Origin: a virus
Strand: one strand, 5' to 3'
Length of the DNA: 20,906 bases
Virus record (IMG/VR): IMGVR_UViG_3300001680_000239
Coordinates: 1 to 20,906 of that record
Shown: positions 1 through 14,909 of the stretch, one piece after another
Layout: every line of letters begins with the position of its first letter
Numbering within the stretch: position 1 is the stretch's first letter
Translations under genes and position numbers: made by a program
Notes under the pieces: model-generated
The model's input: the letters and a program-made list of their open reading frames with translations, nothing else
Databases searched by the model: none
Told to the model about the DNA's origin: nothing

Positions 1-147
1 ACTGCAATTAATGTAGGGTTAATAACAAAAGAAGAAGCAATACAACTTAGAAAGGATATTGCTGATGGTAAGAAAGACCTTGTTGATGTTACTTCACCTG
101 ACGGTATCCTATCATTTGGAACCATAACTTATGATGACGATCAATGA
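1..147 (+). CDS. 3' end of an unrecognised gene (partial)
   Basis: An open frame enters from the left edge in frame 1 and stops at TGA 145-147, giving the last 48 residues of a protein. The visible tail contains a likely helix with the motif LITKEEAIQLRKDI, then a short acidic end (TYDDDQ). I do not recognise the family from so little. Its last 17 bases overlap the start of the next gene, as is usual in tightly packed phage operons. That overlap and the lack of stops are the main support for it being real coding sequence. Confidence 0.6.
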   Translation, partial: TAINVGLITKEEAIQLRKDIADGKKDLVDVTSPDGILSFGTITYDDDQ

Positions 148-463
148 CCTCTCCTTACAATTAGCTGATTTAATAACCCCATTCTTTACAATGATGGCTG
201 GAATAGTCATCGTATTTTGGATTAAGGATTTCGCAGGCAATATAGCACAAGGTTTAAGTTTTAAATACTTTGGACCCTTTAAAGAAGGTGATCATGTAAT
301 GATTGATAACCATAAAGCTGTTATTGTTAAGATAGGGTTATCTGTTACAGTATTTGGTTGTGATGACCCAGAACGTGGTTATATTTGGAGATACGTTCCA
401 AATGACCGTATAGATACCCTAAAGCTAGGAAAAATTATCTCGTCAAGTTCTAAAAAACTATAA
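131..463 (+). CDS. Miniature MscS-like mechanosensitive channel protein
   Basis: This 110-aa protein resembles the pore helix plus beta domain of the small-conductance mechanosensitive channel MscS. Residues 14-31 form a hydrophobic helix, followed by AGNIAQGL (about 35-42), which aligns in my reading with the SNLAAGV pore-helix segment of MscS. The next stretch, FGPFKEGDHV (47-56), fits the MscS F.PF..GE/D.V signature, and YVPNDRI (88-94) fits the conserved v.iPN..i motif. E. coli MscS is about 286 aa, so the first two membrane helices and the C-terminal vestibule are absent. It would sit in the inner membrane, perhaps as an oligomer or as a modifier of a host channel. Start may be ATG 131 or the adjacent ATG 134. 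The beta-domain match is good; channel activity is an inference. Confidence 0.6.
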   Translation: MMTINDLSLQLADLITPFFTMMAGIVIVFWIKDFAGNIAQGLSFKYFGPFKEGDHVMIDNHKAVIVKIGLSVTVFGCDDPERGYIWRYVPNDRIDTLKLGKIISSSSKKL

Positions 464-1974: not shown

Positions 1975-2289
1975 ATGCCTAGTGTTGCAAGAACAGGAGA
2001 TAGTGTTGATACAGGACACACCTGTACTAGTACAACCCAAGCTGATACTCATAGCTCTTCTGTATTTGCGGAGAATAAAGAAATCCACAGGGTAGGCGAC
2101 GCCACCTTATCTCACACATATCCCGTAGGGGACTCATGTCCCTCCCATATTGTAACACTAGACGCTTACAGCAATCCATCAGTATACGTAAACGATAAAG
2201 CTATCGGTAGAAACGGTGATTGGTATGGTAATCATATTATATCAGGTGGTGCTGATACTGTATTCGCAAACGGAAACGAGTATTATTAG
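1975..2289 (+). CDS. gp5.4: PAAR-repeat spike tip protein (gp5.4-like)
   Basis: A 104-aa PAAR protein that would cap the needle of the central tail spike, as gp5.4 does in T4 and PAAR proteins do in type VI secretion. The N terminus MPSVARTGD has the expected start of the fold. Three related beta repeats follow: SSVFAENKEIHRVGD (28-42), PSVYVNDKAIGRNGD (68-82) and DTVFANG (94-100). Several Cys/His residues (H15, C17, H47, C55, H58, H87) are candidates for the metal ion at the cone tip. ATG 1975 follows the previous stop by two bases, with AGAGTAGG upstream. Its position just before a peptidase-like gene and two giant genes recalls PAAR genes that precede type VI effector genes. Confidence 0.9.
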   Translation: MPSVARTGDSVDTGHTCTSTTQADTHSSSVFAENKEIHRVGDATLSHTYPVGDSCPSHIVTLDAYSNPSVYVNDKAIGRNGDWYGNHIISGGADTVFANGNEYY

Positions 2290-2324: not shown

Positions 2325-3704
2325 ATGCCTCATAGTAAATTACCAAATTTCAGTAATAAACCAATCACAGTAGGAACTACTCAGCAATTAGCTGACGGAA
2401 CTCGACGTACGTGGACTGGTACTAAATGGTTAGTTGGATCATGGGATCTAGTGGGAACACCTAAAGATGATGTAGACTACTATCTAATTTCATTAGTACC
2501 ATCGGCGAATCCTAATGATAGCCCAGGGACTCAGGTTCATGGTGGTGATATATTTTTCCTTCATGATCAGACGTTAGCGGAGGGATCAAACAAGAAAGAA
2601 CACAAAGGTCCTATTATTGGTCCACCAAGTACTGTATTCGTACCTGGAGCAGCTGAAGAGGATAAAGTCAAGGTTGGGCGAGTTCAGGCGCAAGTTATTT
2701 TAAAATCGATGCAAGATATATTATTCGCTATGCCTATATACGCTTCACCAACTCTGGGTGATTCATATGGTTCTTTCTATAATCTCACAAGAACATTCTT
2801 TAAGCCATTTGTATATGCGGATATTGAATATGATAGTGATAAGGAAGCTAAGAAGGCGTTTGCTAGAAACTTCCATCTAAGAGATACTGATACTGTACCT
2901 GAATTTATGAAGGGGTGTGGACTTGCTCAAGATCCAGAATTCTATTTAAATCATAAGTGGAAACCTAAGTATCTAGTTGTATATAAGGATGTTGAAGGTG
3001 GTTGGTTTAGTGCACCGGGAGAAGGAGGTATTGCTGGTAGATATCACGGGTTAACTAATACAATAGTTTTTAATAATTCAGAAATGCCTGCTGCTAATGA
3101 TTTTGATCTTTATGGAATCGACACACTTGTTCATGAGTGGGCTCATAGTGAGGTGGCTCATCGCACTGTACAAGGACTAGTAGCAACAAGTGATGAAGAG
3201 TATGAGGAAGAGAAATTGAAGATACAGTTTAATCCAGCTGTTGCTCGTACTACCCTCTTTGGTGATTATGATAGGGCGTTTATATCTGACACAGCTACTG
3301 TAAGAAAGTCAATTGAAGAGATAACAGCCTACTCCTTAAAATTTGGATGGAGTAAGGTTTATGGTGCAGTTGGTAGGCGTTACTCCTCAAAGTCATGGTC
3401 TAGTGAACTATTTGTTCGAATGAAGGCTGCGGCTGCGGTTGGTACATACAGAACATTAAAAGACTTATGGCCTGATTATAAATTGCACATGACACCTGAA
3501 CTTATAGATTTCATGAACGACAATGTATTCCATGTTAATATTAAACAACAAAACATGACAGAAGGATTACAAACATTCTATCAAACATTATTTGGTGACG
3601 AAGGTGGTCAAAAGTTATCTACTGCATACTTTAAAATTAATCAAGTAGCAACATTATCTATAGATAATATCGAAAAGCCCAATCCATACATCTCGCACTG
3701 GTAA
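2325..3704 (+). CDS. Putative HExxH zinc metallopeptidase, virion-associated
   Basis: A 459-aa protein with a zinc-peptidase active-site motif. The helix IDTLVHEWAHSEVAH carries H270-E271-W-A-H274, the two zinc histidines and catalytic glutamate, and it follows an edge-strand-like stretch (TNTIVFNN, 244-251) as in zincin folds. A third ligand could be H279 or the glutamates at 331-332 (EEITAYS), the latter giving a gluzincin arrangement. Residues 14-40 form a small Gly/Trp-rich beta module (LADGTRRTWTGTKWLV) of a kind seen in phage virion proteins. The middle and C-terminal parts are unrecognised. No signal peptide or membrane helix is evident. ATG 2325 is the only reasonable start, since an in-frame TGA lies at 2304-2306. 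It may be a delivered peptidase or a virion-processing enzyme; the substrate is unknown. Confidence 0.75.
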   Translation: MPHSKLPNFSNKPITVGTTQQLADGTRRTWTGTKWLVGSWDLVGTPKDDVDYYLISLVPSANPNDSPGTQVHGGDIFFLHDQTLAEGSNKKEHKGPIIGPPSTVFVPGAAEEDKVKVGRVQAQVILKSMQDILFAMPIYASPTLGDSYGSFYNLTRTFFKPFVYADIEYDSDKEAKKAFARNFHLRDTDTVPEFMKGCGLAQDPEFYLNHKWKPKYLVVYKDVEGGWFSAPGEGGIAGRYHGLTNTIVFNNSEMPAANDFDLYGIDTLVHEWAHSEVAHRTVQGLVATSDEEYEEEKLKIQFNPAVARTTLFGDYDRAFISDTATVRKSIEEITAYSLKFGWSKVYGAVGRRYSSKSWSSELFVRMKAAAAVGTYRTLKDLWPDYKLHMTPELIDFMNDNVFHVNIKQQNMTEGLQTFYQTLFGDEGGQKLSTAYFKINQVATLSIDNIEKPNPYISHW

Positions 3705-3709
3705 TCAAT

Positions 3710-6700
3710 ATGGCATATAGTAAATCTCCTAGTATATTAGGCACACAAGCAAACGGACAAGGTAATACCGTATGGGATGCTTATAGTGATCCAATAACTG
3801 GTGGTTATCAGGTTGTAGATATATCCAAACAACTTGGGGATTCGACAGGTGGATATAGTGTGAGCCGAATAGTTCGTGACATGATACGTCTTAAAAATAG
3901 CTATGTTTTAAAGATCAACGGAAGGCGTATGGGTAAAATCGAAAGGGCGTTATGGACTGAAATTGTAACCAAGAAAGTTAACAGAGCTCAACAGAAGAAT
4001 CAAATTAAGATTGGTGTTGGAATTAAACCTTTATTGTTAGATGATAATATAATCAGTACTAGTAGCAGACGTGGTCAAAAAAATAAATTTACAGGTCCAG
4101 ACTATCAAGCCAGCTCGTTTACAACTGAAGGTATATTCGAGCCAGTATTACTTTATATAGACAGTAAGTTTCCATCTAATGATATTGCAGGAGATGTACC
4201 TGAAAACGTCATATATGCTGTTGCTCAGCCTCTGGGACTAACTCAAGCCTTTATTGCTAAGTCAGTAGTAATGAATGTTATTAAGAGACACCATAGAAGC
4301 GACTATTTATTACTGTATGTCAATTCAAAGACTACTAATATGGCATCTAAAGACTATGTTACTGGAGGTTCATTCAGTATGGATGAAAAATGGGGTGGTA
4401 CCTCATTAGCTACCGGTGAAGAAATGCTTAAATTAGCTGATGATGGTAAAATTGGCAACTTTATGGAATTTAAAGTTATAGAAGCTGGTCACTTAAATAA
4501 ACAAAATCTAACCATCATTGAGATAGTTAGCGACTTTCATATTGGCATAACACCTGGTCAGATGAAAATATCAGAGTTTATGCAAACATACTATCCAGCT
4601 TATAAAGGTGATATATCTAAAGTTAAACTAGATGGAATGAAATTTTCAGGGCCCTTACAGAAGGGAGATGGTACTGGTGGACTTCCAGTGGAGTGGCACG
4701 TAGAATATGGCAGTGCAACAGCTAAAAGTCACCTTCAACGAGCAGGTTGGATTATTATTGAAGAGTTTTCTGATGCTGCAGGTCTTAGCAGAGGTGAGGC
4801 TTCTGGTTGGGCTAAACCACCAGAACGCCTCAATTTAAACAAGCCTCTATTGCATAGATTAAAGAGGCACGGTATAGATGGTGTTAAACTCACTGATAAA
4901 CATCAAGCTAAGAAAATGGGTATGGGTGATTACCCCATTAAACAAACGATTATATTCGACCACGCAGTACAGAGAATACGTAACCTGATGAAACCCTCCC
5001 CTCATTATGGAATGTATGCTGTATCAAACACCCTAAAGGTTCAAGCTGCTGTTATGGCGGATGCAGGTATTTCTGTTAAGGATGGCTTATTAGTTCGTAA
5101 AAATGTTAACTCTACAGTTGTTGATCGAATTGTGAACCAGATTATAGCATCAGAAGTTCAAGAGATAATTGACACTGGCGAGTATGTATCTGATAAGCGA
5201 GTGAGTGATGATATTGTTAAATTTAAAAATAAATATCAATTTGATAATGAATGGGTTATATTAAAATTAAATGGACCTGTTCTCGATGATTGGCAGCAAT
5301 TTGATACATTTCAATTGGCAGATGATCAAGGGATAATGCAACCTAAGAAGCCAGTAGCACACACACAACATTACATAGTGACGCCTAAGAACATATGGCC
5401 TGAATCTGTATTGAAGCATGGTCAAATTTACGATTCTATAGAAAAAGACGGCTATAGAGTACAGAGAAATTCTCGACCTTTATATTACTCTGCTGAGGTT
5501 GGTGCAACGGAATTCAGTGCACTCGGACAGTACAATAGTTATATGCAACACCCCTTCCTAGAGTTTACAATAGATCCCAAGAGAAGTAATTTTGAACTAA
5601 AACTGATCATGTCGAACACGGATTTAATTAAGGCAAACCAAGCTTTTTATGAGGAAATTGGGTTTACACACTTTTCATATGATGAAAGGTCAAGAAGTAA
5701 AGCTGAAGGAAGATTAATCTATGCTAGGATAGCAAATGAAATGAAACATGCTATGTTTGGTTCAGATCTAGTAAAGGACACCTTGATTGGAGGTGGAGTA
5801 ATTCGTCAATCAAACCACTCATTGGAGGGTATTGTATCTGCCCAACGGTTCTGGCAAGAGGTTTATTCTTTACATGCAGAAATGAATTACGGTTATCTAT
5901 GGAATGAAAATGTTACTTGGAGGGACGTTAATTATCAGACTGAAATTAGGTTTGATCACAACAATAATTCTCATAGGATAGTGACTGGCACCCTCGAAGG
6001 TTTCGCTTCAGAAGCATTAAATGGAAAGGAAATGAGAGAGAGGTTCATGCATACTGGAAGTTTATCTAAGGAGGGTATTTTAGTACTTTATGGTGATGCT
6101 GATGCTATTTTGTATGATAAGCATGGAAACGAGCTGGTAAAGAGGAAACGATATGAAATTAAAAAGTTAAGTGAAGCTGATATTATTAAATTCGTTCGAC
6201 CTTTTCTTACTGTTAACTCCGCCGAAGCATTAAAGCAGTTAACAGAGATACAGAGGCAAGCAGTAGCAAAAGCCAACTCTGAGTTTAAATTGCCAGCATT
6301 AACAAGCCATAATATTGGTGATAGAAAGACATATGATGTTTCAGATCCAAGTCCAGGAATCCGATCTGAAAAACCAATTGGTAAAAATGGTGGTATAGCG
6401 TATATGTCACCTAGGGAATTCTTAAAGATGGCCTTCCCACTCGAGTATGATTTAAGTGTATGGTCAATGGAAGAACTTAATTCTTCCATAACACAACTAG
6501 AACAAGATGTCAACTTCTTAGAAGATATTGAAGACACAAAGGGATTGTCAGATGCACAGGACACTCTACTAGATGAGAAAAAACAAGATTTAAAGAATTC
6601 AAGAACTGAGAGGTCCAAGATTGAAAGCAGTGCTAGGCTTTATAAGAGTGGTGCTCAATTTGATGCTATTCCACAATTTAACATTAGATATGATCCAGCT

Positions 6701-9268
6701 GGAGGAATAGAGTATGGTCGTAATCATAGTACACTAGGAACATTGACGACTAAAAAAGGCGAAGCTGTGATAGCACATCAAGTGGGTAAGTGGTTTGCAC
6801 ACGATGGTAGACATAGAGCTTTAGCTATGGCATACGGTGGTGTTAAGTTAATGCCGGTATTATTTATCGATAGTAGAGGTAATCCAGTGGATTGGCAAGA
6901 GTTGGGTAAATCCAATTGGCCTGAGAAATTAATCAGTGAAAAATATTCCGTATCACTCGGACGATCACCTCGAGGCCAAATAATGGACTTTCCTATAAAT
7001 TGGGAAGCTGCACAGCCTGGTGGGATAGCACTACCTCATAACGTAGACAACACGGAACTTAAAAAATGGGTAGATGGCCATAAAGGTCCTATGTTAAGAT
7101 CGATGGGATTAAACCCACAACAACAAGAATTAACCCACTTAGCTGTAAAATTTGTTGACAAGTATGGCAAAACTGTAAAGGTTAGTAGTAAAATTAATAT
7201 CCACCCGGATTGGATAGATAAATTTGGTCCATTGACCTCTGCACGTATTAATGAACGCATTGTTCTTGAGATTAATGAAGCATACGGTTTACACGAACGA
7301 TATATAGCAAGCAATGCATTCGGGCCCATATCATCTGCAGATATGATGATACCATACACAATAGATGAATTTGAGAAATTAAAATATACATCAGAGAAAG
7401 TTAGTTTTAAGGGCTACAACTACACGAATCATCAAGTTGCAGAAGCTGTGATTATAGCACGTGGACGTCTTTCATACCAGGATAACCCAGACAATCCTGG
7501 AAGGCTTGGTGGTCCTTCCCAACAAGAGCTTGTAGATTTTATTGATAGCGCGAAGATAATGAAGGAACAAACTGCATTGATGGATAAACTTACTCATCCA
7601 ATTAAATTAAATTGGGAGAAAATAACACCATCTGATATGCGAACATATGGCCCTAAGTTGGCTGACATTGACGTCAATATGACTATAGCTGCTGATAAGC
7701 TGTTTAAACTTGTCAACCGTAATGACTTCATGTCACTAATTGAACCAGCTAAGATTATATTAAAGAAACCTATAGTAATAGAACGAAGAGGAAACGCACC
7801 TTCTAATCCAGAACACCTATACTCAGCTACTCAAGTAAATCCAGATGCTCCAATTGGAAAGGCTCCGGACGGCGTAGTGTTAACTCGTTATATTATACCT
7901 GAGGGCACTCACGTTTATCTAACTACAGGAAATGCTGATTTACATGAGGTTCTTATTGATGGTAACACAATAAAAGAAAAGTGGACATCATCTAGTGCAA
8001 AGAAATGGAGCATCGCTAGAAGTCATACGTATGATTATGTTAAAGTTACTGTAGATGGTAAAATGCAGTTTCATGATAGCAAGGGAAAGATAATTAAACT
8101 TGTTAACCCATACGGACCATATACTGCCCAAGAGTCATTTTCAATTGGTGATGTTACAATTGAATCTATTACTGGTCAAGGAGTAGAAGAGCTTTGGGAA
8201 ACATTCAAAAAACGAGTCACTAAATTAAAAGCTCAAATAATAAGAATCGAAAAGAAGGGTGGTTATGTTCATCCAGTAATGCAGGACTATGTAGACAAAC
8301 ACCACCAGGATATGCAAGCAATTGATAGGTTAGAATTCAAAGCTAAAGCTATCCGTGCGGCAGTAACTTCAATGCATATTAGTTTAGGTGTATTGGGTAT
8401 TGGTGGTAAGAAAATGTCTACTCGAATATTTACTGGAGGTATCTTCCTTGGTGCATCTGTATTCTTTCAAGAGCATTATTTCAACCGGGCTGCAGCTATG
8501 GCGTACGATGAGGAACATCCGGATCAGACACCAACATGGACAGATGAGCAGGAACAAATGTATCAGCGCTATGATTGGATGTGGGGACACATTTGGCTGA
8601 CTAAAGTTATTCATAGAGCTTTTGATAACGACCTAAGTAGTAGGGGTATCCTTCCAATTGCTGATGCAGTCCTTGCGCATACTGGAGCTGGTGTAACGAA
8701 AGCTTATAACGAGTTAACGGGTCATCAGAAAGCTAATTTGTGGCTTAAAGAACGAATTCAAGTTTATAATGAACGGTGGGCAATAGGAGAGACTTTTGCA
8801 AAAGCATTGATATTCATTGAACCAATAAGTGATTTAGCAAATATAATAGAACAAGGTCCTGCCCTCTCTTTCGATCAGAAAATGAGAATATATAAACCTG
8901 AATTATGGCGAAAGTATAAATCTTACATACTTACTACAACAAATGCTGCAGCCATGGCTGCAGAGTGTGAGAAATTACCTGAAGACACTACGGCGCGGGC
9001 CAGATGTGAACTAAAATTAAAATTATATAACGATGCAACTGATGTTTCGAGTCTTTTGGAAAATCCTCCATTTAGTCCACAAGAGCTTGGGCAATTATAT
9101 TCTTCAGGGTTTAATGTTAAAACAGGTAAACCATTTGAAAATGGAAAACAATTTGATAGCGAATTCGCTAGAAAGTGGCGGAAGAAAATGCGCAGTGGAG
9201 GCGGGGTGATGTATGGCAATGGAGATAGTCAAGGAACAAAATTTTGGAAGGACATATTAGGTAAATGA
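3710..9268 (+). CDS. Giant polyvalent-type protein with ParB/Srx-like motif and possible ADP-ribosyltransferase modules
   Basis: An 1852-aa protein, about 27% of the window. Clearest is a ParB/sulfiredoxin-like module at about 894-1060: IAYMSPREFL, then HDGRHRALAM (1031-1040) and GVKLMPVLFID, which fits the family's DGxHR...A...G...PV signature. Tentative modules are GIDGVKLTD...IIFD at about 380-417, YYSAEVGATEFSAL at about 592-605 followed by strands to about 675, and an R-S-E-like set with R1360-G, YSAT (1371-1374), IIPEGTHVYL (1395-1404) and HEVLIDG (1412-1418). Residues 915-975 look like a coiled coil. Two hydrophobic stretches lie at about 1553-1585, followed by a long helical C terminus. 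The beginning (MAYSKSP) resembles that of the upstream peptidase (MPHSKLP). It ends in an ATGA overlap with the next gene. Phages and conjugative elements are known to deliver such polyvalent proteins with their DNA; that role here is inferred. Confidence 0.8.
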   Translation: MAYSKSPSILGTQANGQGNTVWDAYSDPITGGYQVVDISKQLGDSTGGYSVSRIVRDMIRLKNSYVLKINGRRMGKIERALWTEIVTKKVNRAQQKNQIKIGVGIKPLLLDDNIISTSSRRGQKNKFTGPDYQASSFTTEGIFEPVLLYIDSKFPSNDIAGDVPENVIYAVAQPLGLTQAFIAKSVVMNVIKRHHRSDYLLLYVNSKTTNMASKDYVTGGSFSMDEKWGGTSLATGEEMLKLADDGKIGNFMEFKVIEAGHLNKQNLTIIEIVSDFHIGITPGQMKISEFMQTYYPAYKGDISKVKLDGMKFSGPLQKGDGTGGLPVEWHVEYGSATAKSHLQRAGWIIIEEFSDAAGLSRGEASGWAKPPERLNLNKPLLHRLKRHGIDGVKLTDKHQAKKMGMGDYPIKQTIIFDHAVQRIRNLMKPSPHYGMYAVSNTLKVQAAVMADAGISVKDGLLVRKNVNSTVVDRIVNQIIASEVQEIIDTGEYVSDKRVSDDIVKFKNKYQFDNEWVILKLNGPVLDDWQQFDTFQLADDQGIMQPKKPVAHTQHYIVTPKNIWPESVLKHGQIYDSIEKDGYRVQRNSRPLYYSAEVGATEFSALGQYNSYMQHPFLEFTIDPKRSNFELKLIMSNTDLIKANQAFYEEIGFTHFSYDERSRSKAEGRLIYARIANEMKHAMFGSDLVKDTLIGGGVIRQSNHSLEGIVSAQRFWQEVYSLHAEMNYGYLWNENVTWRDVNYQTEIRFDHNNNSHRIVTGTLEGFASEALNGKEMRERFMHTGSLSKEGILVLYGDADAILYDKHGNELVKRKRYEIKKLSEADIIKFVRPFLTVNSAEALKQLTEIQRQAVAKANSEFKLPALTSHNIGDRKTYDVSDPSPGIRSEKPIGKNGGIAYMSPREFLKMAFPLEYDLSVWSMEELNSSITQLEQDVNFLEDIEDTKGLSDAQDTLLDEKKQDLKNSRTERSKIESSARLYKSGAQFDAIPQFNIRYDPAGGIEYGRNHSTLGTLTTKKGEAVIAHQVGKWFAHDGRHRALAMAYGGVKLMPVLFIDSRGNPVDWQELGKSNWPEKLISEKYSVSLGRSPRGQIMDFPINWEAAQPGGIALPHNVDNTELKKWVDGHKGPMLRSMGLNPQQQELTHLAVKFVDKYGKTVKVSSKINIHPDWIDKFGPLTSARINERIVLEINEAYGLHERYIASNAFGPISSADMMIPYTIDEFEKLKYTSEKVSFKGYNYTNHQVAEAVIIARGRLSYQDNPDNPGRLGGPSQQELVDFIDSAKIMKEQTALMDKLTHPIKLNWEKITPSDMRTYGPKLADIDVNMTIAADKLFKLVNRNDFMSLIEPAKIILKKPIVIERRGNAPSNPEHLYSATQVNPDAPIGKAPDGVVLTRYIIPEGTHVYLTTGNADLHEVLIDGNTIKEKWTSSSAKKWSIARSHTYDYVKVTVDGKMQFHDSKGKIIKLVNPYGPYTAQESFSIGDVTIESITGQGVEELWETFKKRVTKLKAQIIRIEKKGGYVHPVMQDYVDKHHQDMQAIDRLEFKAKAIRAAVTSMHISLGVLGIGGKKMSTRIFTGGIFLGASVFFQEHYFNRAAAMAYDEEHPDQTPTWTDEQEQMYQRYDWMWGHIWLTKVIHRAFDNDLSSRGILPIADAVLAHTGAGVTKAYNELTGHQKANLWLKERIQVYNERWAIGETFAKALIFIEPISDLANIIEQGPALSFDQKMRIYKPELWRKYKSYILTTTNAAAMAAECEKLPEDTTARARCELKLKLYNDATDVSSLLENPPFSPQELGQLYSSGFNVKTGKPFENGKQFDSEFARKWRKKMRSGGGVMYGNGDSQGTKFWKDILGK

Positions 9269-10269
9269 AACATATACAAGTTCAATCTCAACCATTAAAT
9301 CAATCACAAACTGTTAATAGTCAAAAGATTATTATAGAGCCAACAAAGCTGACCCATTGTGCATTAGTAAACGCTCAAAAGAATTCTGATAAAACCTATG
9401 TTGATATGTGGCTCCTCAAATTATCTAATAGTAGACGAGCCTTTTATACTATTAGTGATGATCAAATAGGCCTTAGTGCAGCTGATATTGATAAAGTTGA
9501 ATTGTATGAAACTACTAAAGGCTTTACTGAATTAGCTATTAAGTTAGTGTATGATGATATCATGAGTAAATTTGAATTGGATTCACAAACGAGATTTTTA
9601 TATCATTCATTTAATAAGAATGTTCTTTGGTATGCTGATTGTGCTGTTGGTGTTTTAAGCAACTGGGATGAAGATATCACTGTTAACGGTGATGGGTACT
9701 CCGAATTGTATTGGGGGTATACACAAATATCACTTGCTGATCTGAGATACACCTTTGCGGTTTTTAAAAACCTGTTTAAAAAGTATAATGATAGGGTATC
9801 TAAGTCGTTAAGGACGTATTGGAACGGTGACTTAAATAAGTTAAAGATGCCTGAAATCATGATTAGTAAGCCAAGTTATATGGAAAATTTTGATGAAGGA
9901 TATGCTTCTACTGAAGGTGGTGATGTTAATTACGACGGAGTTATTGATGCACAAGAGAAGGCTAATGATGAAGCAGTGAAAGTAAGAGCTGCAGAACTTC
10001 ATTTAGATGCTGTATTTGAATGGAGATATCAAAATGCTGTTAGTGAGTGGACCTATGATCAGTTAGTCGGACTTATGATAATAGAGCATTATAGTAAGTC
10101 AACAGAAGATGGTCTTTTTGAGTCCGTTTTAAATTGGATTCAATTTGGAGCAGGAGATAATTATGGCACCACCTTACAAACATCTGCGATAAATATATTT
10201 AAGAAATCAAAAGAATCAGATATGATAAAGGAAGTAGGGGAAGCATTCTTCTACTGTTATAAACCATGA
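9265..10269 (+). CDS. Protein with EF-hand-like calcium loop, between two giant genes
   Basis: A 334-aa protein of no family I recognise. Residues 220-231 (DVNYDGVIDAQE) are a textbook 12-residue EF-hand/dockerin calcium loop, with D1, N3, D5, G6, I8, D9 and E12 in the proper places. A weaker calcium-loop-like stretch, TVNGDGYSEL, lies at 139-148. The region between them (about 155-190) is helical and basic. There is no signal peptide or membrane segment. Both ends are in 4-base ATGA overlaps with the giant genes, so the three are probably translated together in related amounts, and this protein could be a chaperone, linker or calcium-dependent partner for one of them. That partnership is inferred from position only. 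Confidence 0.75.
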   Translation: MKHIQVQSQPLNQSQTVNSQKIIIEPTKLTHCALVNAQKNSDKTYVDMWLLKLSNSRRAFYTISDDQIGLSAADIDKVELYETTKGFTELAIKLVYDDIMSKFELDSQTRFLYHSFNKNVLWYADCAVGVLSNWDEDITVNGDGYSELYWGYTQISLADLRYTFAVFKNLFKKYNDRVSKSLRTYWNGDLNKLKMPEIMISKPSYMENFDEGYASTEGGDVNYDGVIDAQEKANDEAVKVRAAELHLDAVFEWRYQNAVSEWTYDQLVGLMIIEHYSKSTEDGLFESVLNWIQFGAGDNYGTTLQTSAINIFKKSKESDMIKEVGEAFFYCYKP

Positions 10270-13200
10270 GTAAACATCTAATAACCCACGAGCCTGACCT
10301 TATACTACTGCAGAAAGACTTTGCTGAAAAGTTACGTGAGATTGTACCAACTAAAGCCTCTGTATTAAAAACACCTGTAGGGAGTGTTCATAAAGTTGAT
10401 GGTAAGTCAATTAAGACTAGACCAGATACTATTGATGAATTCTTTAAAATGTCTAAGGATTTAAAAGCTGCAAATATTCTATTATGGTTCAGGAGTGAGG
10501 AGGCTGGGTATCTTTCGACTAACCTTAACGAGCATTTAATGAGTAGGGGAGCATTTCTACAAAAATGGGGAGATGACATTAAAAAGGTAGCTGAGATTTG
10601 GAAGGAACTTAATCAAGCTTCTCAATATGGACATAATGGACCATTTGCTGGAACTGCAGAAAACCAAAAACTAAAAGCTGGTATTAACAGTATAGATATT
10701 GAATCACTAGATACACACTTCGAACAGTATCAGCGTGATGCGTTTTGGAAACGTAACCTCAACGCTGTTAAGAAAACTAATTTAACTAACCTTATTGAAA
10801 AGATTGAATTGATACTAGTAACAACTGATCAAGGGCAACGAAAGGCATTACAAGAAGAAATTCGAATTATAATTCATCAGAGGGGTGCTAAATTAGGTTT
10901 AGGCGGGGTGGTAAGTAGTAACATCAGGCCTGAAACTGAAGTATTACGTAATGTATTATCTAGGAACGGTTTTGGAATTCAGTATAATAAAAGAAGTGCA
11001 AACCTAAGAACAGAACTAAACCAAATAACTCAAAGGTGGATCAACAACATGCACCAAACAAATATTGTTGAGATAGTCGATATGATGGGAGTTATTTATG
11101 ATCAAGATATGTATGTACTACGAGTAGAAGGCCTCCAAGATACTGCAATCAAATACGAGATCAGACAAAATCCACAAAACATGCCAGGTGAATTAGTAAG
11201 TTTAAGAAACGGCGTGGCGCGAATCGATAGAACAATTAACAAAGATAATAAGCCTAATAGAAGAGCAGCAATCGATGCTATGATTAACCATAGAGGAGTA
11301 GATAGATCTACGGTGAATGTACCCTCAACAGTGAATCTACTATCCACTGCAATGGTCACACAAGCTGAATCAACCCTACTCAATTCATATGAAGGTAAAT
11401 TAATTAAAGGAATTAGTGTAACAAGAATTCCTGCAGGTACTGCAGTGATCCCAGTTGGTGGTTTGAATTCAACGGAACTACTTATCTATGAAAATGTTTT
11501 AAATAAACATACAAATGTGATTATAGATGGTGTTCAAATTATTAAATCTCTTAATATGATAAAACCTGGAAGTGGTGATGTAGATAGAGCTACTAAAAGA
11601 CTACTACAAGCATATGATAAAGATAGACTCAATGGAGATATCATTGATAACCTTTTCGATAGCGTATTCGACTTTAGTAGTATTGAAGCACAACATGACT
11701 CTAAAGTACTCACTGGTGTTGAGATAGTATCGGGAAGAAAACCAGGAATATTACAGAAATTAGCTACTAAAGACTCTAGTTGGAGGACCGTACTAAATTC
11801 AGTAGCATCTACCCAAAGTATATCAGCTCATGCATTGATTAACTTACAATTCACAGAGGAATTTAAGATACATCTAAAAGCTAATCCAGGCACAATATTA
11901 AGCGATTTATACGATTCTTTAGAGAGTGCTAGAAATAAAAAAGTTGGAGGTAAACCAGCTCCACATTCAATTGCTAAAGCTATTATTAGCGAGAATGGAA
12001 TACAGCATATACCTATATCGTTCTTTGTAAATGCTGCTAGTGCATCATACTCTGTAACATATGCTGGCCAATCATATATGAAAGGATTTTACAATCTATT
12101 TCAACAATATACAGCTGTAACATCCTTTAAACTTAAACCACTCAATGTACCATATCCATTATATTTTACTAAAACACTTCTTCCTCAAGAGTCCTTTGAA
12201 AAAACTATCGCGCAAGAGCTTAAAGTGTGGTTGGGTATTGAAGAGACATATGATCCAGAATTGGATAAGGATTTATATAACGATCAACAGAAACGTAAGA
12301 TACAATTCGAGAGGGATCTTAGAGATAAATATAAGATATATTATAAACAGTATGTTCTAATAGATGATGCTGCACGATTTCTTATAAGATATTCAGCTCG
12401 TAATGTAGCAGGTTCTGAGTATTGGGCAACAAACCAAGGGCATCAAGATTATCTAAAGAGATCAGCTGACATTGGATTCACAGTACCACCTAATACAGAT
12501 GTTTCTATAAGCCCAAGAGTTACTGGAAATGCGCAAGGAACATTATCTAAAGCTAGGGGATTTTTCTTACCAGATTCTATAGTTGAATCTGGTAAAGCTA
12601 TCTTGTTAGCTCTTCCACATACTGGTGCTGAAATATATAAAGAGCTGACTAAAAAGATCTATAGATCAGGTAATCCAGCATTTATAGAAATTATCTTTTG
12701 GATCAGAACTATACCATCTCAACTTGAAGGTAATGCTACGTTTGAAGAACTTATACTGGCTAATCAGAATCCACTAACCATGCCTTGGATTATAGATGAT
12801 GATGGAATCTCTGGAAAAGGTAATAAAGGGAAGAAGATGTTTTTGTCTACTTTACACTATTTGGGCAAACAAGGGTTAGCTGGAGGAAATAAAGGAGCTT
12901 GGGAGCTATACAAAAAAGGAATTCAATTCCATCCAGAAGTTCAAGGTGAAATTCAAAAGTGGATGCGAGCGGTATATGCAGACTTTGATAGACACTGGGA
13001 CACTGTAGCTGATGAAAACTACTTCCGTAATCGATTATCTAAAGCTAGATACTTAGACGTTTCATTGCAAAGAACAGATTTTACAATTGACTCAGATGCT
13101 CGATTCGGACCACAACCTGTGAAAAGTTCAGCCACAGTACCTCGAAGTGGCGCGATGCAAATGCCGTTCCTAGATACAAGGTATATCTTAAGAGCTATGA

Positions 13201-14909
13201 ACATGCTAGCTGTATCTCAAGTTGTTCCAGCATTTACTGTACTCAAATATAGGGGAACAAAAACTTCAGATCTATCATTCATGGACGATATCGCGCAAGC
13301 TGATGGTGGTGAGATTAAAGATTTCTTTGATCAATTCCATAACGTAATTGATGATAATATTGCAGACCCTGATCATAGAATTGGTGTTAAAAAACCTAAA
13401 TTAGCAGATGGTTTGATAGTAAATACAGTATTCATCGATGATAAATTGAATGAGTTATATATCAAACTATTGAATGGAACATTCAGTCACCCATATGATA
13501 GATATAGCAAAGGTGGTAATCCGGGTATTAATAGAATGAACATGCTTGCCAAACTTGGAGATGAACATCCTAGGTTTTTAGCATATGAACACCAATTATC
13601 GGTAAGAAAACAATTGTTTTCGGTGTTTGCATTCTTAGGTGCTAATAAAAACTCACAATATGATCTTAACAACACCAGGCCGAAAGCAAAGAAAGTTGCA
13701 AGACTTAAAGAGCAATTGGATGAGCTTGAAAATAGTATTAATGCATTTAATCAAAAGTTCGTTAATACTCAGAAAGCTAATGCTAAAGTCATTCAAGAAA
13801 AAATGAATTCTACTGTCAACTTCAGTATATCATCAATGCTTGATAATAGTGATTATGTTTTAGAGGATGGTAATTTATTCTTCTTTCAAGATGGTATTAA
13901 AATTAACACTAACATACCACTCGACATTACTCAAATTGACGCTATTAACAATCTACAAGGAAAGGGGTTGAATCTTGCTGTAGTAATCAAGGATGGTATG
14001 AAGTATCTTGAAGTGAGACAAGTTCGAGGAATACCTTCGGCCACGGGTGGTGTATTCAAAACACTCGGTAAAGCTGGTGGTGCAATACTTGCCCTTATAC
14101 CAATCGATGCAATAGCTGGTGTAATATTTCACTACGACAATGAACAAATGTTTAAAGATTGGTGGGATGCTTCATCATGTGATCCACACACTCCAGCATG
14201 TAAGGCTAAGATCAAAGCGATGCATGAAAATTTAAGTGAGGCTGCTCGAGTTAACTTCATTGATAATCCAGATGCTACTGGACCTTTATGGGGAATTACA
14301 CCTCGTGAAGCTTGGAGTGGAACCTCTGAATTTGCTGCAGATGCTTATTATATGGTTATGCATCAAATTCATAAAATTGTATCTAATGTACCATGGGACG
14401 AGATACTAGAAGGAACTATGAGATCAATTATTGATGTTTGGGAGAATGACATCACCTTGTATGAATTCAAGTTGCAGCTCGAGCAAATGTTATTTGATTT
14501 AAGAAATATGAAGAAAGGCTTTTTAGAAGTGTTTTCAGAATTCATTGACGTGTATCATCATGTATACCTTAGATCTGCAGTAGCGGCAGAAGCTATGTGG
14601 GATATGTTTGTATACGTTCTTAAATGGGTTGGCCATGGTATTGCTAGAGCTTTTGATCTAATCAGTGTATTGTGGTCTGTAGCAACTGATCTTGACTCAT
14701 TAAGACTTAATAGCCAATTCAATACTCAGAATATTTCCACTCTGATAGTTATTCTATCAGGAACCTATATATTAAAAACAATTGAAGGTATGCCTGAGTT
14801 AATTAAGACACTACAAGCTAAACAGTTAGAAGCTGAGAATTTGATGTCTGATGAAGATAAAGAAAGGCTCAATGACATTATATACCAAAGAACAGGGATG
14901 GGTTATTAA
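10266..14909 (+). CDS. Second giant virion-type protein with ADP-ribosyltransferase-like signature and C-terminal membrane helices
   Basis: A 1547-aa protein, largely unrecognised. Residues 341-412 hold a candidate ADP-ribosyltransferase core: HRG (342-344), LLSTAM (358-363) in the place of the STS strand, VTRIPAGTAVIPV (385-397), and STELLI (402-407) with E404 as the possible catalytic glutamate. This parallels RG, YSAT, IIPEGT and HEVLI in the 1852-aa neighbour. The central part (about 430-1130) is a mixed soluble region without a motif I can name. Residues 1139-1180 look like a coiled coil. Hydrophobic segments lie at about 1268-1288, 1443-1475 and 1489-1503, and the chain ends in a charged helix. 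T4 injects Alt, an ADP-ribosyltransferase, with its DNA, so a related delivered role is plausible. The gene starts in an ATGA overlap and ends 33 bases before gene 13. Confidence 0.75.
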   Translation: MSKHLITHEPDLILLQKDFAEKLREIVPTKASVLKTPVGSVHKVDGKSIKTRPDTIDEFFKMSKDLKAANILLWFRSEEAGYLSTNLNEHLMSRGAFLQKWGDDIKKVAEIWKELNQASQYGHNGPFAGTAENQKLKAGINSIDIESLDTHFEQYQRDAFWKRNLNAVKKTNLTNLIEKIELILVTTDQGQRKALQEEIRIIIHQRGAKLGLGGVVSSNIRPETEVLRNVLSRNGFGIQYNKRSANLRTELNQITQRWINNMHQTNIVEIVDMMGVIYDQDMYVLRVEGLQDTAIKYEIRQNPQNMPGELVSLRNGVARIDRTINKDNKPNRRAAIDAMINHRGVDRSTVNVPSTVNLLSTAMVTQAESTLLNSYEGKLIKGISVTRIPAGTAVIPVGGLNSTELLIYENVLNKHTNVIIDGVQIIKSLNMIKPGSGDVDRATKRLLQAYDKDRLNGDIIDNLFDSVFDFSSIEAQHDSKVLTGVEIVSGRKPGILQKLATKDSSWRTVLNSVASTQSISAHALINLQFTEEFKIHLKANPGTILSDLYDSLESARNKKVGGKPAPHSIAKAIISENGIQHIPISFFVNAASASYSVTYAGQSYMKGFYNLFQQYTAVTSFKLKPLNVPYPLYFTKTLLPQESFEKTIAQELKVWLGIEETYDPELDKDLYNDQQKRKIQFERDLRDKYKIYYKQYVLIDDAARFLIRYSARNVAGSEYWATNQGHQDYLKRSADIGFTVPPNTDVSISPRVTGNAQGTLSKARGFFLPDSIVESGKAILLALPHTGAEIYKELTKKIYRSGNPAFIEIIFWIRTIPSQLEGNATFEELILANQNPLTMPWIIDDDGISGKGNKGKKMFLSTLHYLGKQGLAGGNKGAWELYKKGIQFHPEVQGEIQKWMRAVYADFDRHWDTVADENYFRNRLSKARYLDVSLQRTDFTIDSDARFGPQPVKSSATVPRSGAMQMPFLDTRYILRAMNMLAVSQVVPAFTVLKYRGTKTSDLSFMDDIAQADGGEIKDFFDQFHNVIDDNIADPDHRIGVKKPKLADGLIVNTVFIDDKLNELYIKLLNGTFSHPYDRYSKGGNPGINRMNMLAKLGDEHPRFLAYEHQLSVRKQLFSVFAFLGANKNSQYDLNNTRPKAKKVARLKEQLDELENSINAFNQKFVNTQKANAKVIQEKMNSTVNFSISSMLDNSDYVLEDGNLFFFQDGIKINTNIPLDITQIDAINNLQGKGLNLAVVIKDGMKYLEVRQVRGIPSATGGVFKTLGKAGGAILALIPIDAIAGVIFHYDNEQMFKDWWDASSCDPHTPACKAKIKAMHENLSEAARVNFIDNPDATGPLWGITPREAWSGTSEFAADAYYMVMHQIHKIVSNVPWDEILEGTMRSIIDVWENDITLYEFKLQLEQMLFDLRNMKKGFLEVFSEFIDVYHHVYLRSAVAAEAMWDMFVYVLKWVGHGIARAFDLISVLWSVATDLDSLRLNSQFNTQNISTLIVILSGTYILKTIEGMPELIKTLQAKQLEAENLMSDEDKERLNDIIYQRTGMGY

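Follow-up and report, generated by a model that had tools for sequence, protein, structure and literature searches.

A ParB/sulfiredoxin-type domain in a giant protein encoded next to the PAAR tail-tip gene of a T4-like phage

The locus and its genes

The window, i.e., the whole stretch of DNA analysed here, is a 20,906-base virus record of a T4-like phage whose nearest named relatives are found in the Kyanoviridae. Its large terminase shares 67.6% identity with that of Phage C48C1 (Kyanoviridae), and the two have in common a late-gene order of neck adaptor, head closure, sheath stabiliser, small and large terminase, and sheath. Ahead of the neck genes lies a slot in which a PAAR gene is followed by the gene for a 459-aa HExxH protein, that for the giant protein P0001, that for a 334-aa protein and that for a second giant of 1547 aa:

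1975..2289, plus strand: PAAR tail-spike tip protein, 104 aa, standalone in the window (PHROG 281, E 5.7e-14; Pfam PAAR, E 1.1e-4)
2325..3704, plus strand: 459-aa metallopeptidase-like protein with HEWAH (HExxH), between PAAR and P0001 (by motif only)
3710..9268, plus strand: P0001, 1852 aa, the giant protein containing the ParB/Srx-type domain, an uninterrupted ORF
9265..10269, plus strand: 334-aa protein that shares homology with the gene following PAAR-ART in relatives, over that gene's N-terminal part
10266..14909, plus strand: second giant protein, 1547 aa, with a single, strongly hydrophobic segment around residue 1270

No match in Pfam or PHROG was found for the 459-aa protein. Metallopeptidase-like proteins or domains of the HExxH/HExxx kind recur in this slot (window 2325-3704, L003 434-2157 and L298 5455-7026), with no Pfam match. 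The 334-aa protein has in common with the downstream gene of L003, L006, L298, L299, L304 and L305 a domain with the pattern 'E..W.p...AYGY.Q', which, judged by its motif, resembles lytic transglycosylases; the Glu of this pattern in most relatives is missing from the window copy. No family match was found for the 1547-aa giant, in which the string 'SVTRIPAGTAVIPVGGLNSTELLI' looks like an ADP-ribosyltransferase-like (ART-like) block, one that an ART-like profile fails to separate from shuffles. Upstream of PAAR, a 110-aa membrane-like protein (window 131-463), which may be MscS-like, is kept in L304 (64% identity) and L305 (54% identity). Further downstream, an extra ORF of ~330-350 aa is situated between the first two neck genes (gp13/gp14 positions) in L002, L003, L020 and L304, and is not present in the window.

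When the whole of P0001 was compared by tblastn with phages and IMG/VR, zero relatives were returned, and none of the Pfam LPD domains was matched in it. Several candidate features were discarded. Matches to Pfam DUF1192 and phrog_29084 lie on coiled coil and were treated as spurious, phmmer matches to coronavirus nsp1 (E 0.28) were dismissed as chance, and a jackhmmer match of residues 150-450 led to an ORF in L265 that is itself a spurious basic ORF. A hydrophobic segment suspected at the C-terminus fell below the hydropathy threshold, and an upstream ART-PolyVal domain, suggested by 'LKRHGIDGVKL...', scored no better than shuffles against the ART-PolyVal profile.

The ParB/Srx-type domain and its family

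An earlier note on this DNA had placed a ParB/sulfiredoxin-like module in the middle of P0001, based on three motif blocks. The frame, the coordinates and the blocks proved correct, and the proposed interval (6389-6889) does hold all three, but it stops short of a conserved W...WPEKL tail (nt 6893-6931). The domain and its elements are as follows:

6383..6934, plus strand: ParB/Srx-type domain, residues ~892-1075 (family profile, AlphaFold model, top Foldseek matches sulfiredoxin)
6401..6424, plus strand: YMSPREFL, residues 898-905, first strand and helix of the domain (family 'v.M.P..FL.LA')
6467..6607, plus strand: helical hairpin/coiled-coil insertion, residues ~920-966, not present in relatives, two long helices in the model
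6704..6787, plus strand: second insertion (loop), residues ~999-1026, of low confidence (pLDDT<50)
6800..6826, plus strand: HDGRHRALA, residues 1031-1039, P-motif (GxxR = G1033..R1036), which binds phosphate in the ParB-CTPase fold (PMC12704722)
6839..6859, plus strand: GVKLMPV, residues 1044-1050, last core strand, with conserved columns
6893..6931, plus strand: W..L...NWPEKL tail, residues 1062-1074 (family 'irW..Q.dP...DY...P..L..E.G', the DY element missing from P0001)

Searched as a single sequence against Pfam, PHROG and the PDB, the domain segment gave nothing useful (weak coiled-coil matches only), and tblastn against phages and IMG/VR gave zero relatives. For this reason, IMG/VR was scanned for DNA encoding HDGRHRAxA, which yielded at least 60 loci. 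The 25 representatives chosen from these have in common an extended pattern reaching well beyond the motif, i.e., v.M.P..FL.LA, a helix, G..fd.iP.L, kV, H[DE]GRHRA.A, G...mPV and a W...DY...P..L tail. The profile of the 25 members matched P0001 with 44.9 bits, compared with 12.5 for the best of 3000 shuffles. The 100% conservation of H.GRHRA.A is a consequence of the scan pattern itself, and the evidence therefore comes from the other columns only. With the motif masked in both the profile and P0001, the match still reached 23.8 bits vs. 7.2 for the best of 3000 shuffles. Among the columns not fixed by the scan, P0001 retains F904 and L905 (conserved at 92% and 96%, outside the selection pattern), P988, G1044, P1049 and V1050 (97%, 93% and 99% in the family), W1062 and P1071, and it has neither the KSR motif nor the DY element that most relatives carry. 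A search with jackhmmer over three rounds, seeded with P0001's own segment, recovered at least 146 ORFs, and a second IMG/VR scan with HEGRHRA, with a profile search afterwards, gave at least 147.

The segment on its own thus has no one-sequence match in Pfam, PHROG or the PDB, and is matched through the intermediate family profile, which resolves a failure that we ascribe to the lack of sensitivity of one-sequence searches. The unmatched single sequence, with its weak coiled-coil matches, would also fit a chance HDGRHR string in an ordinary coiled-coil structural protein. This is very improbable: the motif-masked match lies far above the 3000 shuffles, several separate conserved blocks match in order, and the predicted fold, described below, matches Srx. 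By chance, H[DE]GRHRAxA would be expected ~1e-7 times in a sequence composed like P0001.

The fold was approached through both profiles and models. The best PDB profile match of the family was SbnI, a serine kinase of the ParB/Srx fold, with an E of 0.026, and then 0.013 when 91 sequences were used; these values are modest, and the match was the best among 177,635 sequences. Family members also gave weak matches to ParB_N, to ParB-like PHROGs and, in NCBIfam, to SerK and SbnI. An AlphaFold model of residues 885-1095, built on a 91-row alignment (pLDDT 72, pTM 0.65), has the order strand-helix, long helical hairpin, strand, disordered loop, and helix-strand around HDGRHR...MPV, with the GxxR (Box II) motif G1033-R1036 followed by a helix and a strand. 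When this model was compared with the PDB using Foldseek, the top six matches were all sulfiredoxin chains, at weak E values of 0.4-0.95 and a TM by query length of 0.22-0.24, a weakness that is attributed to dilution of the score by the helical insertion; in BFVD, the second match was a phage 'ParB/Sulfiredoxin' protein (E 0.01). Each of these items is modest, and with independent methods in agreement the assignment of residues ~892-1075 to a ParB/Srx-type domain is well supported. The class proposed in the earlier note is therefore upheld by the masked-motif profile, the SbnI match in the PDB, the weak SerK and ParB matches, the six sulfiredoxins and BFVD alike.

The note's further suggestions, of a CTPase or nuclease and of an enzymatic rather than structural protein, go beyond the intact GxxR motif, which implies nucleotide binding at most. 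An acidic residue equivalent to the catalytic Glu of SerK/SbnI, which we take to be N-terminal to the DGxHR box, was not evident by inspection in P0001, nor was one conserved in the aligned region. Since P0001 has no DY element, no KSR motif and no evident equivalent of this Glu, binding without catalysis is possible. We know of no member of the clade with an established nucleotide or reaction. ParB-fold proteins, including those of phages, bind CTP, ATP or GTP through GxxR, and their nucleotide specificity is not predictable from sequence (Kaljevic et al. 2025; PMC12704722). The fold has a published precedent as a scaffold (PMC12704722), and in P0001 it might likewise be a nucleotide- or protein-binding scaffold, without catalysis, in a structural or injection-channel protein. 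The two insertions, the missing DY element and the position of the gene among structural genes would all be in keeping with this, but the HDGRHRA box is fully intact and the slot contains neighbours of enzymatic appearance (ART-like, HExxH), so that such a role appears unlikely. A true ParB-type CTP-dependent DNA clamp or partition protein is harder still to credit, and is given almost no weight. Some relatives do weakly match ParB_N and a ParB-like PHROG, but P0001 has no helix-turn-helix, dimerisation-domain or ParB-family match in Pfam/PHROG, the window genes searched included none recognised as ParA-like, and the locus is the late region of a lytic phage.

Members of the H[DE]GRHRA clade occur widely in giant (large polyvalent) proteins of phages, with at least 140 matching ORFs. 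Many of the ORFs listed are longer than 1000 aa and some longer than 3000 aa, the giants reaching up to ~4000 aa, and one family member carries LPD38 together with ART-PolyVal, so that the link to polyvalent proteins drawn in the earlier note was correct in kind. P0001 itself, with a ParB/Srx domain and an ART-like block (see below) in 1852 aa adjoining late genes, resembles large polyvalent proteins in combining distinct domains in one giant protein. The DdrB-like ParB domains of such proteins have been treated as likely NTP-regulated DNases (Iyer et al. 2017; PMC5512222), and the domain of P0001, from the same superfamily and in the same kind of host protein, could be one of these, nicking or degrading DNA. 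This is quite unlikely, as Pfam ddrB-ParB (PF18763) matched 0 of 91 family members at E<=0.1, vs. 2.1e-39 for P1 DdrB as a positive control, and hhalign of the family with the DdrB segment left the cores unaligned. Comparisons by hhalign with single P1 ParB and DdrB sequences were uninformative or negative, and no Pfam model was found to match the clade well. At the level of sequence, the clade appears to be separate from Pfam's ddrB-ParB. Among the loci listed, PAAR occurs in only one other ParB-family locus (L203), and proximity to PAAR is therefore not a property of the clade.

PAAR fusions and the ART-like block

The relatives L006, L298/L300 (near-identical), L299, L304 and L305 have the upstream genes, PAAR and the neck genes in common, and differ in the region between. 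In five syntenic relatives, PAAR is fused (547-588 aa in all) to a C-terminal half that shows the pattern R / YSA / E, and the window PAAR protein scores 107 bits against the PAAR part of these fusions. A block with the same pattern is found in P0001:

L006 1123-2841: PAAR-ART-like fusion, T4-like phage contig
L298 3719-5452: PAAR-ART-like fusion, T4-like phage contig
L299 890-2644: PAAR-ART-like fusion, T4-like phage contig
L304 9146-10909: PAAR-ART-like fusion, T4-like phage contig
L305 9179-10819: PAAR-ART-like fusion, T4-like phage contig
Window 7748..7987, plus strand: ADP-ribosyltransferase-like block of P0001, residues 1347-1426, with invariant R / YSA / E

A profile of the five PAAR fusions matched residues 1347-1426 of P0001 with 22.5 bits, compared with at most 5.4 among 2000 shuffles, and the R, YSA and E of the block are invariant in a four-sequence alignment. 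The model of the ART-like region of a relative was poor (pLDDT 53), although its top five matches in the PDB were ADP-ribosyltransferase folds (best E 0.012), and the ART-like assignment of the block is for this reason considered likely, not proven. The block had no sequence match to named ARTs, tblastn with the non-PAAR part of the fusions gave zero relatives in the phage collection, and, with the patterns used, GTDB genome contigs yielded no PAAR-ART-like relatives. Jumbo phages have been described as having standalone PAAR proteins, i.e., unfused to effector domains (PMC7824862); since that survey concerned jumbo phages, the fusions in T4-like phages are an exception outside its set and not a contradiction of its data. 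In the part of the literature on phage PAAR and ADP-ribosyltransferases that was covered, no title was recognised as describing such fusions.

A possible role in host takeover and comparison with known systems

Taken together, P0001 is probably a polyvalent-type host-takeover protein of a T4-like phage, with an NTP-using ParB/Srx part and an ART-like part, that enters with the virion. Its gene would occupy a cargo slot, with the PAAR tail-tip gene on one side and the neck genes on the other. The ParB/Srx-type domain would bind a nucleoside triphosphate through G1033-R1036, and the bound nucleotide would serve phosphotransfer, NTP hydrolysis or a nucleotide-gated reaction directed at a host target. 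The ART-like block (residues 1347-1426), which is PAAR-fused in relatives, would contribute to this takeover as well. To reach the cell, P0001 would travel in the virion, on the PAAR tip or inside the head. It may be delivered into the host by the virus, as its gene adjoins the tail-tip gene and lies in the slot of the enzyme-like proteins of relatives. Delivery by the tail tip is favored because relatives carry PAAR fusions, with head packaging, as in T4 Alt, as the alternative; an attachment of P0001 to PAAR is a guess, as the PAAR of the window is standalone and encoded by a separate gene.

A broader and distinctly more tentative idea is that the PAAR tail tip of this T4-like lineage is a T6SS-like carrier of exchangeable effectors, delivering host-takeover enzymes at infection. 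With such a carrier, the slot would be filled by PAAR-fused ART-like domains in most members found, and here by a giant ParB/Srx and ART-like protein. Neither the type of domain nor the polyvalent idea is new; new, as far as checked, are the clade outside Pfam's ddrB-ParB, the insertions particular to P0001 and the PAAR-ART-like fusions in T4-like phages. The PAAR-adjacent P0001, in the slot of the relatives' PAAR-ART-like fusions, would be an exception to the published standalone PAARs of jumbo phages, and the locus makes the loading of enzymes on a phage tail tip a testable question.

Among known systems, the free serine kinases SbnI/SerK have the same order as the family (helix, strand, [DE]GxHR, helix, PV strand), but possess a catalytic Glu, at the position of which no conserved residue was found in the family; SbnI is a small metabolic enzyme, whereas the P0001 domain is embedded, with insertions, in an 1852-aa phage protein. 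Sulfiredoxin accounts for the top six Foldseek matches of the model (E 0.4-0.95), but the P0001 domain has no sign of the catalytic Cys or the peroxiredoxin substrate of Srx. The DdrB-like ParB domains (PMC5512222) resemble it in belonging to the ParB/Srx superfamily, in occurring in phage polyvalent proteins and in their late-gene context, and differ in that the clade is unmatched by Pfam ddrB-ParB or hhalign. The PAAR-fused effectors of T6SS/eCIS are similar to the relatives, which in this slot carry a PAAR gene with a fused ART-like domain; the relatives, however, are T4-like phages, and the PAAR of the window is standalone. Finally, T4 Alt, a virion-injected ADP-ribosyltransferase (PMC5512222), compares with the ART-like block, itself of putative R-S-E type, in its R-S-E type, its T4-like phage and its late-gene context, but Alt is a head protein, whereas the ART-like block is found here on PAAR or in the adjoining giant protein.
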